From a virus: a stretch of DNA of 28,113 nt. The first letter of the stretch is position 1, and the number at the start of each line of letters is the position of its first letter. The notes below the pieces were generated by a model. It was not told the DNA's origin. It ran no database searches and worked only from the letters and a program-made list of their open reading frames with translations. A program made the translations under genes and the position numbers. The stretch is from positions 1 through 28,113 of IMG/VR virus record IMGVR_UViG_3300032242_001302. One strand, given 5' to 3'. Below, piece by piece: positions 19,960 to 24,378 of the stretch.

Positions 19960-20116
19960 TGTGTAGAGGGAGAGTTCCTGTGACATTTACGATCTCCTAA
20001 ATCTGATTATCTTTGGCTTCCTCTATACATTCCTCGAAACGCGGTATAGGTTGAGTGACATTAACTATACCAACAACGCAAGTTGTCAAGAGCCCACGCA
20101 ATGTGGGCTTTTGTTT
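19958..20116 (+). ncRNA. Putative small RNA 1 (about 159 nt)
   Basis: No ORF is credible here. Transcription from the promoter at 19922-19951 would begin near 19958 and stop at the terminator ending 20116. The 5' domain closes on itself: TGTAGAGG (19962-19969) pairs with CCTCT-AT-ACA (20020-20029). Inside, GGAGA (19969-19973) can pair with TCTCC (19993-19997). A second hairpin, GGTATAG-G-TT with AACTATACC (20043-20071), has 9 bp and one bulge. The loops of both hairpins carry GTGACATT (19980-19987 and 20055-20062). The combination of promoter, structure and terminator supports an independent RNA; function unknown. Confidence 0.65.
20091..20116 (+). terminator. Intrinsic terminator of ncRNA 1
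   Basis: AGCCCAC (20091-20097) pairs with GTGGGCT (20103-20109), loop GCAAT, followed by TTTTGTTT. A standard rho-independent terminator; it may also end read-through from the fibre/holin operon. Confidence 0.85.
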
Positions 20117-20129
20117 GGTTAAAACATAT

Positions 20130-20157
20130 TTGACATTTTATATTAAACCTGTATAAT
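20130..20157 (+). promoter_or_regulatory. Strong sigma-70 promoter for ncRNA 2
   Basis: TTGACA (20130-20135), 16-nt spacer, TATAAT (20152-20157), both hexamers perfect. It lies 14 nt after the preceding terminator. Expected start near 20164. Confidence 0.8.
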
Positions 20158-20163
20158 TATTAT

Positions 20164-20271
20164 TGTGTTGTTAGGCAAGTCCCAATCCAAGGTGCGGGGA
20201 GATATAAAGGCAAACCAATATACTCAATCGTAGATTGTTTCAAGGGCGGCTAAGGTCGCCCATTTTTTTGA
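20164..20271 (+). ncRNA. Putative small RNA 2 (about 108 nt)
   Basis: A consensus promoter and an intrinsic terminator frame about 108 nt without a credible ORF. CAATC-GTA-GATTG (20225-20237) is one small hairpin. Upstream, G-rich (GGTGCGGGGAG, about 20191-20201) and C-rich (GTCCC, about 20178-20182) stretches can pair with each other. Size and layout are those of a regulatory sRNA or RNA decoy, but I do not recognise a family. Being read from a host-type promoter suggests early or constitutive expression. Confidence 0.7.
20244..20269 (+). terminator. Intrinsic terminator of ncRNA 2
   Basis: GGGCGGC (20244-20250) pairs with GTCGCCC (20255-20261), loop TAAG, followed by A and seven T. A clear rho-independent terminator. 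Confidence 0.9.
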
Positions 20272-20321
20272 TTAAAAAATCTCTATATTTTACCCTATAA
20301 AAAATGTTAAACTAAATATTA

Positions 20322-20349
20322 TTGCGTTATTAATGTCATTGAATACAAT
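20322..20349 (+). promoter_or_regulatory. Candidate promoter for the large structured RNA
   Basis: TTGCGT (20322-20327), 16-nt spacer, TACAAT (20344-20349). The -10 is good and the -35 weak. Expected start near 20356, shortly before the first stem at 20371. An alternative -10-like TATATA lies at 20360. Confidence 0.45.
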
Positions 20350-20718
20350 AACCAAAATTATATAGCACAAGGTTGACGGGCCAAATAATAATACCGTTGG
20401 TGAATCCGTTCTGATGTGTGACGGCAACCAGATCCATTCGCTATAGATGGGCTTTTGAACACTACCCTCTTGATGAGAGGATGCCTTAAAGCATATGGCC
20501 ACGCTTTCCCTGCTTTGTTCAATCGTAAATGGTGTAGGTCAGAGAACTTACGACAAAGTCTGTGTGGACACTAGAACATAGTTTGAGTGACCATTCTGCA
20601 ATGATCCATAAAAAGCACCTGAGAGTGGATCTTAAAAATCGTTATAGGTAGGGTAAGGAACAGAGCCCATAGCAGGAACCCACAGCCAACCAAATAAGCC
20701 TATTGCAATGAAACGACG

Positions 20719-20782
20719 CCCGGAGTCGGAGAGTGTTTGCACCTAACCCTTAACAGGGTGCATTCACTCTGCCTGGAGTGGG
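20719..20782 (+). other. Long interrupted helix within the large RNA
   Basis: AGAGTG (20730-20735) and TGCACC (20738-20743) pair with GGTGCA (20757-20762) and CACTCT (20765-20770), separated by a symmetrical TT/TT mismatch. GG/CC with one bulged G, a 6x6 purine-rich internal loop and CCC/GGG extend it outward to 20719 and 20782. The 13-nt loop contains ACCCT, which could alternatively pair with AGGGT (20746-20759). This is the clearest structural element of the region. Confidence 0.75.
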
Positions 20783-20797
20783 AAGGAGAAATATTAA

Positions 20798-20832
20798 AAA
20801 TGAACCATTGAGCGTTAGCGATTGGTTCATTT
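20798..20832 (+). other. 10-bp stem with flanking A and T runs
   Basis: AAATGAACCA (20798-20807) pairs with TGGTTCATTT (20823-20832) around a 15-nt loop. The A-run before and the T/A-rich run after make it a possible weak terminator for the large RNA, or a boundary between that RNA and the leader of the gene at 20891. Confidence 0.5.
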
Positions 20833-20833
20833 A

Positions 20834-20870
20834 TATATTGATCAGGTCTTGCAAAAGACCTTACAATATA
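20834..20870 (+). promoter_or_regulatory. GNRA-capped hairpin in the leader of the gene at 20891
   Basis: TATATTG (20834-20840) pairs with CAATATA (20864-20870); inside, across a 3x2 internal loop, AGGTCTT (20844-20850) pairs with AAGACCT (20855-20861) around the tetraloop GCAA, a GNRA type. It ends 20 nt before the start codon, just upstream of the ribosome site GAGGA. It may be a translation control element, or the 3' domain of the large RNA with the tetraloop making a tertiary contact. Confidence 0.7.
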
Positions 20871-20890
20871 AACTTACTTGAGGAAAACAA

Positions 20891-21193
20891 ATGTCACTAC
20901 TAAATCAAATTGAACGCTTACATTATCATCTCTTAGATCATAATGAGATTGATTGGGATCTCATTGAAGATCTAATTGTCAATGAAGATATCAGTGCTCA
21001 ATCACTTAAAAAATTAATTGATTATTTTGTTAGGAACTTATCAAATAATCATATTGTTCCTGGTAAGATATATCAGACCTTATGTGGTATAGGTGATTTC
21101 TGTTCTATAGAAGATCATTATACATCAAAACAATTTAGATTTGTATATGCTAATTTGGCAACTTATTATGATCAAATAGATCCGTTTAAATAA
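20891..21193 (+). CDS. Unknown protein (100 aa)
   Basis: 100 residues, acidic and mostly helical, with no membrane segment. It begins MSLLNQIERLHYHLLDHNEI and has two repeated-looking acidic helices (IDWDLIEDLIVNED). A clear GAGGA ribosome site precedes the ATG. Codon use is A/T-rich compared with the structural genes. It follows the structured non-coding region with no intervening terminator better than the stem at 20798, so it may be read from the same transcript as the large RNA. No family recognised. Confidence 0.55.
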   Translation: MSLLNQIERLHYHLLDHNEIDWDLIEDLIVNEDISAQSLKKLIDYFVRNLSNNHIVPGKIYQTLCGIGDFCSIEDHYTSKQFRFVYANLATYYDQIDPFK

Positions 21194-21760: not shown

Positions 21761-22173
21761 CACATACTCAACATCCCCTATGGCGTAAATGGACCTACAT
21801 TCAATATACCCTAAACAATCCCAATCATAAACAATATGCCCAGGCAAAAAAGTATGGCTGGACTTGTGATTGGGATAATTTTAGATCATTTGCCTCTGAC
21901 ATTGAACAGCACCTGGGCTTGCCACTACCGGGTGAGATGTTGATACGCAAAGATCAAACTCAGGGTTGGACATTGAAGAACTTAGACTATGGCACTGAGA
22001 AAGTGCGTGGCAATCGTCAGCGTACTTGTCTAATATTAAAATACCGAAATAAAAAGATGACTGCCTCGCAATGGGCTGAATATAGAGGCATACCGGTAGG
22101 CACACTCTACAGCAGACTATATCACTACCATTGGCCTGTGGCAGAAGCACTAGAATATAAAAAGAGAACATAA
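21757..22173 (+). CDS. HNH-like (degenerate) DNA-binding protein with HTH-type tail
   Basis: 138 residues, coupled on both sides (ATGA before, TAATG after). The layout is that of phage HNH-type proteins: an N-terminal helix (HPLWRKWTYIQYTLNNP), YGWTCDWDNFRSFASDI, then LPLPGEMLIRKDQTQGWTLKNLDY, matching the general form 'W..F..D..G..P.G..L.R.D..GW...N'. The metal-binding His and Cys of active HNH nucleases are not visible. The C-terminus MTASQWAEYRGIPVGTLYSR resembles the small HTH that follows such domains ('t..ewa...gi...tl..Rl'). It lies right before three methyltransferases, so a DNA-binding or former nuclease role is plausible. Confidence 0.5.
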   Translation: MTHTQHPLWRKWTYIQYTLNNPNHKQYAQAKKYGWTCDWDNFRSFASDIEQHLGLPLPGEMLIRKDQTQGWTLKNLDYGTEKVRGNRQRTCLILKYRNKKMTASQWAEYRGIPVGTLYSRLYHYHWPVAEALEYKKRT

Positions 22174-22889
22174 TGACATACCAACTACATCAGCAAGATT
22201 GTTTGGCTTGGATGCGGGCTCAATCTCCAGAATCAGTGGATATTATATTGACAAGCCCCCCATACAATTTTGATATGCCCTATGGCACTTATAAAGATGA
22301 CATCACAGATTATCGTAGTTGGACAGCGGCCTGGATTGCGGAAGCCAGTCGTGTATTAAAACACACAGGTAGGCTTATCATCAATATACAACCAAAATTT
22401 AGTGCAAGAGAACCATATCATCATTGGGTCCATCACGCCGCTGAAAGTGCGGGCTTACTATGGTACGGTGAGCGTATATGGCAAAAGAATACCATAAACG
22501 GTTATCGTGGTGCGGCTGGAAGTATGGGCATACCCAGCAAGATTTATCTTTGGTATTCAACTGAATATGTTCAAATATTCAGCAAAGGTGATATCTATCG
22601 TCCAACAAAAAGAGAGGATAGTCTTATTACTATGCCAGAACAAACTGCCTGGGCTAAAGATCATATTTGGAGCATAGCACCAGCAAGGCAAAAAGACCAC
22701 CCAGCACAAATGCCCGCACAACTGGTAGAGCGTTGTCTTAAACTATTTGCTCGTCGAGGTGATATGGTGTATGATCCATTTGCTGGAGCAGGCACAACTA
22801 TGATAGCCGCCAAAGAATTGGGATTAGACAGCATAGGCACAGAGATAGATCCTGATTACTGCCAGTTTATACACCAAAGGATGCAATGA
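22173..22889 (+). CDS. DNA methyltransferase 1, beta class (N6-adenine / N4-cytosine)
   Basis: 238 residues. Catalytic motif IV, SPPYN (28-32), comes first and the AdoMet-binding motif I, DPFAGAGTT (201-209), comes last; this permuted order and the HPAQMPAQLVERCLKL helix before motif I are those of the beta class of amino-methyltransferases (N6_N4_Mtase). The region between, about 40-180, should hold target recognition. SPPY is compatible with N4-cytosine or N6-adenine, so the base is not certain. The N-terminal 15 residues equal those of the next gene, and the last 18 (SIGTEIDPDYCQFIHQRM) equal both neighbours. No restriction enzyme is adjacent, so protection against host restriction is likely. 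Confidence 0.9.
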   Translation: MTYQLHQQDCLAWMRAQSPESVDIILTSPPYNFDMPYGTYKDDITDYRSWTAAWIAEASRVLKHTGRLIINIQPKFSAREPYHHWVHHAAESAGLLWYGERIWQKNTINGYRGAAGSMGIPSKIYLWYSTEYVQIFSKGDIYRPTKREDSLITMPEQTAWAKDHIWSIAPARQKDHPAQMPAQLVERCLKLFARRGDMVYDPFAGAGTTMIAAKELGLDSIGTEIDPDYCQFIHQRMQ

Positions 22890-22941
22890 CCTATCAATTA
22901 CATCAGCAAGATTGTTTGGCTTGGATGCGGACACAAGCAGA
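22836..22941 (+). repeat. Methyltransferase junction repeat, copy A
   Basis: 106 nt covering the last 50 coding bases of methyltransferase 1, the ATGA overlap and the first codons of methyltransferase 2. It aligns without gaps to 23618-23723 with about 8 differences by hand count (about 92% identity). The middles of the genes do not share such similarity. Confidence 0.85.
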
Positions 22942-23671
22942 CGCCACTATAGACATCATAATGTCCTCGCCACCCTATAATATTGGCATTGCTTACAATA
23001 CCTATGGCGATAAAATGACGGCACAAGATTATCTTGATTGGCAACGAGATATATGGACAGAAGCCTGCCGCATACTTAAATTCTCTGGACATTTATTTTT
23101 AAACATAGCACCAACCCGTAAAGATCCACTACTGCCTTATCGTGTAGCAGACTCAATACCCTGGAAAATACAAAACTCTATAATATGGAGCAAATGTATA
23201 GAAATAGATGGACACGTCAGAGGACACGGAGTAGTTACAGCCAGCAAAAAATATCTACCCAATGGACACGAAATGATGTTTCACTTCACTAAAAATGGTG
23301 ATACTGAAATAGATATCGCATCTTCTGGTGTTCCTTATCAACCTGCCTGGGCCGCTGATAATACTAAACGCACAGGCAGAAATTGGAGACCTACAGTCAA
23401 TAATTGGCATATACCCTATGAAACCTGTGGATCTTTTGGTGGTAATAAAACTGCTGAACTTAAAGGCACCAAAAAACACCCCGCTATATTTCCCAGAGAA
23501 TTAGTGCGTCATTGTCTCAATGTAGCAGGAGCACAACCTGGACACATAGTCTATGACCCTTTCGCTGGCACAGGCACCACCTTGGTAGTAGCCAAAGAAA
23601 TGAACATAGACAGTATTGGCACAGAGATAGATCCAGACTACTGCCAATTTATACACCAAAGGATGCAATGA
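22886..23671 (+). CDS. DNA methyltransferase 2, beta class
   Basis: 261 residues, ATGA-coupled to methyltransferases 1 and 3. Motif IV is SPPYN (28-32), motif I is DPFAGTGTT (224-232), and HPAIFPRELVRHCLNV precedes it. The middle (about 85-205) is unlike its neighbours and longer, containing IIWSKCIEIDGHVRGHGVVT and NWRPTVNNWHIPYET, the usual 'W...W..i' pattern of this family. The central part should set a different target sequence. The start and end of the gene are nearly identical in DNA to those of the neighbouring genes, which suggests duplication followed by divergence or exchange of the middle. Confidence 0.9.
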   Translation: MTYQLHQQDCLAWMRTQADATIDIIMSSPPYNIGIAYNTYGDKMTAQDYLDWQRDIWTEACRILKFSGHLFLNIAPTRKDPLLPYRVADSIPWKIQNSIIWSKCIEIDGHVRGHGVVTASKKYLPNGHEMMFHFTKNGDTEIDIASSGVPYQPAWAADNTKRTGRNWRPTVNNWHIPYETCGSFGGNKTAELKGTKKHPAIFPRELVRHCLNVAGAQPGHIVYDPFAGTGTTLVVAKEMNIDSIGTEIDPDYCQFIHQRMQ

Positions 23672-23723
23672 CCTATCAACTATATCAACAAGATTGCTTG
23701 GATTGGATGCGGACACAAGCAGA
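23618..23723 (+). repeat. Methyltransferase junction repeat, copy B
   Basis: Direct repeat of 22836-22941, spanning the methyltransferase 2/3 junction, 782 bases downstream. Recombination between the two copies would remove exactly one complete gene and leave an intact coupled junction. Half-copies exist at 22173 (start side only) and 24325-24375 (end side only). Confidence 0.85.
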
Positions 23724-24378
23724 TAACTCTATAGATACAATCTTATTCTCACCACCCTATAATAAAAAAGGATTGAGAGGTGGAGTTAGAACATCAACCA
23801 AATTATGGAACAAGGCCAATATAGATTATGCTACCTATAAGGATAATATGCCAGAAGATGAATATCAGGCCTGGCAAATACAAGTAGTTGATGAATGCCA
23901 CCGTATTATCAAACCTACTGGATCAATATTCTATCAACATAAGATACGCAACTGGGCTCGCAAAGGCAGTCATCCTATGGAATGGCTGGCAAAGACTAAC
24001 GCCCAGTTCTATCAAGAAATAGTTTGGCATCGTAAATCTACTATGGCATTAGATGAACGATATCTATTCAGCACTACTGAACGCATCTATTGGTTCTGCA
24101 AAGATAAACCCACGGTCTATAAACAACAAGTTGATGATCAATATCGCAGTGATGTCTGGGTGATACCTCCAGAACGCCAACAAGGTCATCCCGCTCCATT
24201 TCCAGAACAATTAGCGGCTAACTGCATCCTACTTACTACCCAACAGGGAAATATTGTATATGATCCTTTCGCTGGTAGTGGCACTACCCTGTTAGTAGCA
24301 GAAGGCCTGGGCAGAACTAGTATTGGCACAGAGATAGATCCAGACTACTGCCAGTTTATACACCAAAGGATGGCATAA
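23668..24378 (+). CDS. DNA methyltransferase 3, beta class
   Basis: 236 residues. Motif IV SPPYN (28-32), motif I DPFAGSGTT (199-207), preceded by HPAPFPEQLAANCILL. The centre differs again: a basic insert after motif IV (KKGLRGGVRTSTKLWNK), QEIVWHRKSTMALDERYLFS and SDVWVIPPERQQGHP, the last a good match to the 'dvW.ip......HPa.fP' block of site-specific beta-class enzymes. The first 15 residues are MTYQLYQQDCLDWMR, two changes from the other two. It overlaps the next gene by TAATG. Confidence 0.9.
   Translation: MTYQLYQQDCLDWMRTQADNSIDTILFSPPYNKKGLRGGVRTSTKLWNKANIDYATYKDNMPEDEYQAWQIQVVDECHRIIKPTGSIFYQHKIRNWARKGSHPMEWLAKTNAQFYQEIVWHRKSTMALDERYLFSTTERIYWFCKDKPTVYKQQVDDQYRSDVWVIPPERQQGHPAPFPEQLAANCILLTTQQGNIVYDPFAGSGTTLLVAEGLGRTSIGTEIDPDYCQFIHQRMA

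Follow-up and report, generated by a model that had tools for sequence, protein, structure and literature searches.

What does a phage keep in several hundred nucleotides of DNA that hold no gene? The question is raised by positions 20265-20890 of IMG/VR virus record IMGVR_UViG_3300032242_001302, of which the whole analysed stretch of 28,113 nt is here called the window. The window belongs to a siphovirus-like phage (portal, tape measure, tail fibre, methyltransferases), where non-coding DNA spans from the end of a small gene (19959) to the start of a 100-aa gene (20891). A preliminary description, made from the sequence alone, had proposed at this place a large structured RNA without a recognised family, either a diverged GOLLD or ROOL RNA or a new class. 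Few large ornate RNAs are known; GOLLD and ROOL are phage RNAs found near tRNA islands and recently shown to form RNA-only cages, whose function is not known (PMC12286853). The analysis indicates that window 20357-20866, on the plus strand, encodes a complete copy of a large non-coding RNA whose family is conserved. Dozens of environmental phages that are unrelated to one another carry it, as do mobile elements of Polynucleobacter, a freshwater bacterium. One more widespread class thereby joins the large ornate RNAs, with carriers that range from small phages through very large phage contigs to mobile elements of bacteria, and the Rfam entry RF01718 is corrected.

The gap is indeed without credible genes, as first claimed, since the only ORFs in it that reach 50 aa, of 70 and 54 aa, lie on the minus strand. 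The plus strand of 20350-20890 folds to -152.8 kcal/mol (z = -3.7), a value reached by none of 100 dinucleotide shuffles, and the minus strand of the same interval is unremarkable (z = -1.7). The promoter-like sequence pointed out just upstream was found to hold only in part: the letters are present, but the -35 element is weak and fails a simple consensus scan. The genes flanking the RNA are intact. The 100-aa gene that follows has no match in Pfam, PHROG or PADLOC, and neighbour-gene searches returned no relatives of the 100-aa and 169-aa neighbour genes of the window. The window contains no tRNA and no tmRNA.

The preliminary description had called for a covariance-model search of Rfam and for homologous regions with covarying base pairs. 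In the first, no family of Rfam 15 reached threshold on the window, with GOLLD, ROOL, introns and HEARO among the models, and no family covers the RNA in 41 member loci; weak matches on the window to AgrB, MicX, PhrS, tsr33, ceN42 and SmY were dismissed as chance. These searches bear on whether the RNA could be what is left of a ribozyme or an intron (of group I or II, or a guide RNA associated with an element), a possibility that the large, catalytic-looking fold and the integrases and HNH genes adjoining the RNA in some loci could suggest. However, no group I intron, group II intron or HEARO model of Rfam matches the window, the intact neighbours provide no flanking exons, no host gene is split, and no TnpB or IscB is found among the annotated neighbours, so that this origin appears very unlikely.

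Homologues and covarying pairs were both found. The starting lead was a match of the window to the whole 141-nt model of RF01718 (Polynucleobacter-1), with nearly all helices canonical. At 18.3 bits (E 0.1-0.17) it does not meet the gathering cut-off of 37 bits, and on the criterion that Rfam itself sets, the window falls outside RF01718. A first motif pattern gave four matches, all of them chance hits in coding DNA, and a strict RF01718 pattern had no match in GTDB, whose Polynucleobacter genomes were then reached through a 16S probe. A motif lying outside Rfam's RF01718 model gave 13 viral matches, 12 of which are true homologues, and two more motifs added 34 and 57 stretches. In all, 84 IMG/VR stretches carry a homologue, on contigs that range in length from 4 to 354 kb, and some of the stretches are near-identical copies on different contigs; as the collections were scanned with exact motifs, the counts are minimum values and favour members with those motifs. 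A profile of the 12 viral sequences, built without the window, matched the window at E = 4e-14, and a subfamily A profile, also without it, did so at E = 9.7e-54 (180 bits, 401 nt, 20364-20764). Among 186 Polynucleobacter genomes, 32 were matched at E <= 1e-3, and most of these below 1e-18, by R1 (a covariance model built on the 5' domain of the window type; its E-values are rough), and sampling across the phylum added a single genome. By blastn, the window RNA has no real match in INPHARED phages or PLSDB, nor do five other members and one tmRNA-RNA stretch in INPHARED phages, so that no cultured phage carrying the RNA was found.

Among relatives of the phage identified by portal and downstream gene, three (L006, L031, L057) have the same gene order and lack the RNA, which is therefore dispensable for this phage type. 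The absence was initially read as non-conservation, a reading overturned by four contigs that share genes with the window phage (L208, L183, L240, L182) and carry the RNA at the corresponding place; in L208 it is flanked by the counterparts of w19366 and w21757 (an HNH gene), the arrangement seen in the window. A role in DNA packaging or at a replication origin, on the model of the phi29 pRNA, could be read from a terminase-type gene located ~1.3-1.5 kb downstream of the RNA in L158 and L162 (confirmed by Pfam for L158), yet the RNA is absent from close relatives whose head genes are the same and present in Polynucleobacter elements with no packaging gene seen nearby, and we give this role next to no credence.

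Table 1. Coordinates of the large RNA, its helices and the features beside it. Positions are those of the window unless a locus is named.
Feature	Position	Strand	Basis or remark
Possible promoter	20322-20349	+	TTGCGT 20322-20327, 16 nt, TACAAT 20344-20349; start expected near 20357
Large RNA, ~510 nt, estimated ends	20357-20866	+	Homology 20364-20764 plus conserved 3' hairpins
5' domain, multi-helix, counterpart of Rfam Polynucleobacter-1	20364-20526	+	Alignment A4, covariation
P2 hairpin GACGG/CCGTT	20375-20398	+	99% of cells paired; double-sided change in 4/5 pairs
P3 hairpin GGT/ACC, inner CCGT/ACGG	20399-20429	+	Outer part: 96% paired, double-sided change 3/3
P4 hairpin CCAT/ATGG	20434-20450	+	Subfamily A: 96% paired, covariation
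P5 helix TTGAAC (20455-20460)/GTTCAA (20517-20522), encloses P6 and P7	20455-20522	+	Covariation
P6 hairpin CCTC/GAGG, after invariant CTACC	20466-20480	+	99% paired; double-sided change 3/4
P7 hairpin AAAGCA/TGCTTT	20488-20516	+	Direct reading, counterparts in members
P9 helix TCTGC (20595-20599)/GCAGG (20672-20676)	20595-20676	+	92.5% paired; double-sided change 5/5
P8 hairpin GATCCA/TGGATC	20603-20631	+	99% paired; double-sided change 5/5
P10 ATAGG (20644-20648)/CCTAT (20699-20703), pseudoknot with P9	20644-20703	+	99% paired; double-sided change 4/5
P11 hairpin GGG/CCC with conserved GGGTAAGG..AGAGCCCA motif	20651-20668	+	Nearly invariant, subfamily A
P13 hairpin TGCACC/GGTGCA	20738-20762	+	Counterparts that covary in nearly all of subfamily A, by inspection
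P14 hairpin, GA-NN-GNNA-NN-GA head (GAGCGTTAGCGA)	20799-20831	+	Motif common to viral and Polynucleobacter members
P15 terminal hairpin AGGTCTT-GCAA-AAGACCT	20844-20861	+	No strong T run
Next gene, 100 aa, family unassigned	20891-21193	+	Homologue directly 3' of the RNA in L182
Permuted tmRNA beside RNA	L196 2967-3366		
Permuted tmRNA beside RNA	L200 13250-13649		
Permuted tmRNA beside RNA	L217 4127-4526		
Permuted tmRNA beside RNA	L216 2676-3154		
Permuted tmRNA beside RNA	L195 5802-6139		
Permuted tmRNA beside RNA	L198 2864-3310		
Permuted tmRNA beside RNA	L211 5917-6379		
Permuted tmRNA beside RNA	L223 8221-8667		

The anatomy of the RNA is given in Table 1, with ends that are estimates, as the exact ends are unmeasured. 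The best-supported part consists of the pseudoknotted 5' and middle domains (20369-20703), which the preliminary description had missed. In the 5' domain (40 sequences), 94.8% of the proposed cells pair, compared with 65.1% after shuffling and 31-48% with partners slid, 20 of the 22 pairs change on both sides, and the covariation score is 0.82 against 0.255 +/- 0.015. In the middle domain (also 40 sequences), 97.1% of cells pair against 70.6% when shuffled, with changes on both sides in 15 of 18 pairs. Sliding the partners across the two alignments leaves about 30-48% paired; this control is partly favourable by construction since the structures were proposed from the same alignments, which does not explain the shuffle control or the count of double changes. 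P5 is paired in 100% of cells, with double-sided change in all six pairs (40 sequences) and ~28 different versions among viral members, and the P9/P10 pseudoknot is represented by two helices that both covary, P10 pairing across P9. The conserved multi-helix fold with its pseudoknot is thus real. Some details are less regular: the register of the inner part of P3 varies between members, as judged by eye; P4 is paired in 76% of cells in the mixed alignment, in which subfamily B is out of register; and P7 was left out of the formal pair count because its register shifts. A helix between AAGGT (20369-20373) and GCCTT (20483-20487) predicted by RNAalifold is no more than a possibility, as it hardly varies and would be knotted with P5.

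Towards the 3' end, several stems of the preliminary description reappear as parts of the family. Its 10-bp stem (20799-20808/20821-20831) and its GNRA-capped hairpin, with a GCAA cap (20844-20850/20855-20861), both belong to conserved 3' hairpins, and the inner hairpin (20738-20743/20757-20762) of the 64-nt interrupted helix proposed at 20719-20782 is conserved and covaries. The head motif of P14 was recovered in 48 of 91 members by a strict search, and a hairpin of the P15 type lies 3' of P14 in most members where P14 was found; P15 is likely the 3' end or terminator of the RNA.

With homologues, synteny in relatives and strong covariation in hand, the proposal of a large structured RNA outside the recognised families is sustained, and the question becomes whether it is an old class in disguise. 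Being large, pseudoknotted, supported by covariation, phage-borne and without a fixed gene partner, it passes a test at the level of kind. A very diverged GOLLD or ROOL RNA would agree with this, as those RNAs are of the same kind by size, ornate pseudoknotted fold, presence in phages and prophages and location in tRNA islands (PMC12286853). Still, Rfam 15, which holds both, matches neither of them on the window at E up to 10 nor, at gathering, in the 41 member loci, the window RNA is shorter with a different helix order, and it is joined to Polynucleobacter-1 instead; descent from either is therefore hardly to be expected, and of the two earlier options it is the new class that gains support. 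In particular, ROOL shares with the window RNA a large, ornate and pseudoknotted structure in phages and prophages, often near tRNA islands (PMC12286853), but is ~600 nt long with another order of helices and no sequence or Rfam match. GOLLD, a large phage RNA likewise near tRNA islands and named in part for lake metagenomes (PMC12286853), differs in its length, which often exceeds 800 nt, in its conserved 3' region and in the lack of an Rfam match. The RNA thus resembles GOLLD and ROOL in kind, and not by sequence or anatomy. OLE RNA, also ornate and ~600 nt, is host-encoded in extremophiles and shows no match. The open-access literature yielded no description of the large RNA (subscription papers and preprints were outside the scope) and, for the fragment RF01718, no mention beyond Weinberg et al. 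2010 and a genome paper giving the accession, so that the family has possibly not been described as such so far, although a description that we did not see may exist.

The support for a new class comes with one correction, concerning Polynucleobacter-1. True RF01718 members are present above the cut-off in 19 of 186 Polynucleobacter genomes, patchily and in integrase-bearing elements (L129-L153), and their alignment is conserved over ~560 nt, as compared with the 141 nt in Rfam. Helices P2 to P7 of the window follow the order of the RF01718 consensus, with covarying equivalents along the match (1-141), and window-type and RF01718-type members alike end with a GA-head hairpin of the P14 type followed by the last hairpin. 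An outlying RF01718 member (L149) matches both models (R1 67.7 bits, E 3.9e-14; RF01718 25.8 bits), and window-type copies are matched in their middle and 3' portions by an RF01718-type profile, with E-values as low as 5e-14. Copies of both types adjoin a DUF6641 gene (45-60% identity) and a short tyrosine integrase. Taken with the shared extent, the intermediate L149 and the profile matches identify RF01718 as the 5' part of a diverged branch: judged from sequence comparison, Polynucleobacter-1 corresponds to the first quarter, counted from the 5' end, of this RNA in a distant branch, and is its only relative in Rfam. The two share the 5' helix order, the CTA.CC...GGA.G motif, the central motif and, over the true 3' extent, the GA hairpin, but differ in most of the 5' letters, and the Rfam model covers only 141 of about 560 nt.

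The neighbours of the RNA bear on how it acts. Flanking genes are unrelated between loci (CHASE2-cyclase, UvdE, RNase H, terminase, radical SAM, methyltransferase, DUF6641) and are found in either orientation, which argues against cis control of one gene. A cis-regulatory leader, that is a 5' UTR controlling a gene 30-120 nt downstream, has some points in its favour: Polynucleobacter-1 was marked as probably cis-regulatory by Weinberg et al. 2010 (PMC2864571), the next start codon of the window is only ~25-30 nt past the last hairpin, and a homologue of the 100-aa gene that begins there follows the RNA in L182 too. Nevertheless, downstream genes differ widely, in L178, L180 and many Polynucleobacter loci the gene that follows points towards the RNA, and a pseudoknotted fold of 500 nt kept across unrelated operons better fits a stand-alone RNA, so that we regard a leader as unlikely, though possible. 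An anti-defence decoy, or a sponge for a host regulator, could account for the patchy, accessory distribution and the location among variable genes; as no defence or counter-defence gene was seen nearby, bar one marginal match, it has little to recommend it.

In larger phages, the commonest recurring neighbours are tRNA arrays (L195, L201, L223, L234) and a permuted phage tmRNA, the latter nearby in 7 of the ~42 loci given to Rfam (L195, L198, L200, L211, L216, L218, L223); in L196 and its near-identical copies, the tmRNA lies 69 nt upstream of the large RNA. The betaproteobacterial type of the tmRNA, together with the Polynucleobacter copies, suggests that many carriers infect Burkholderiales hosts.

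We therefore consider it probable, and the most likely of the readings, that the RNA is a stand-alone structured non-coding RNA of ~510 nt, carried as cargo by phages and Polynucleobacter, with its own promoter and acting in trans; its expression, ends, oligomer state and target are inferred. Homology, a conserved fold, intergenic placement and variable neighbours are established; against this reading count the lack of expression data, a promoter that is weak by consensus, a 3' hairpin without a strong T run, the restriction of the tmRNA to 7 of ~42 loci, the lack of any tRNA or tmRNA in the window, and the absence of the RNA from L006, L031 and L057. On this stand-alone reading, the RNA would be an accessory cargo of many tailed phages and small Polynucleobacter integrative elements, presumably transcribed from its own promoter by a host-type polymerase up to the last hairpin, and may work in trans during infection as a folded RNA or an RNA-protein particle. 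By analogy with what is supposed for GOLLD and ROOL, and with tRNA arrays and tmRNA as its commonest neighbours, the likeliest site of action would be translation in the infected cell, which remains a guess. A bolder version, which we find doubtful but possible, is that of an unrecognised giant phage RNA class forming a self-assembling RNA or RNA-protein particle that, with phage tRNAs and permuted tmRNA, takes over or rescues translation, Polynucleobacter-1 being a clipped piece of it. Dozens of sequences, a pseudoknotted covariation model, culturable Polynucleobacter hosts and relatives with and without the RNA make structure and function directly testable.

Some minor observations concern the surroundings of the RNA. 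Four small Polynucleobacter integrative elements (L253-L256) comprise DUF6641 (divergent from the RNA), DUF6876, the RNA, a variable ORF and a short tyrosine integrase, and most of the variable ORFs are without a family match. An ORF of ~683 aa adjoins the RNA downstream in L168, L175, L176, L188 and L190 and upstream in L178; CHASE2 and adenylate/guanylate cyclase domains are confirmed for L168 only, the others being alike by size or by eye. In the window, three consecutive paralogous ORFs (22173-24378) all match the same part of phrog_67 (DNA methyltransferase), and another short, terminator-ended intergenic stretch (20137-20270) is found immediately 5' of the large RNA. A second, shorter non-coding stretch (19960-20120), with a terminator-like hairpin at its end, has counterparts in L006 (1970-2120), L031 (2791-2930) and L057 (5500-5700), and is retained after the tail genes in relatives without the large RNA.
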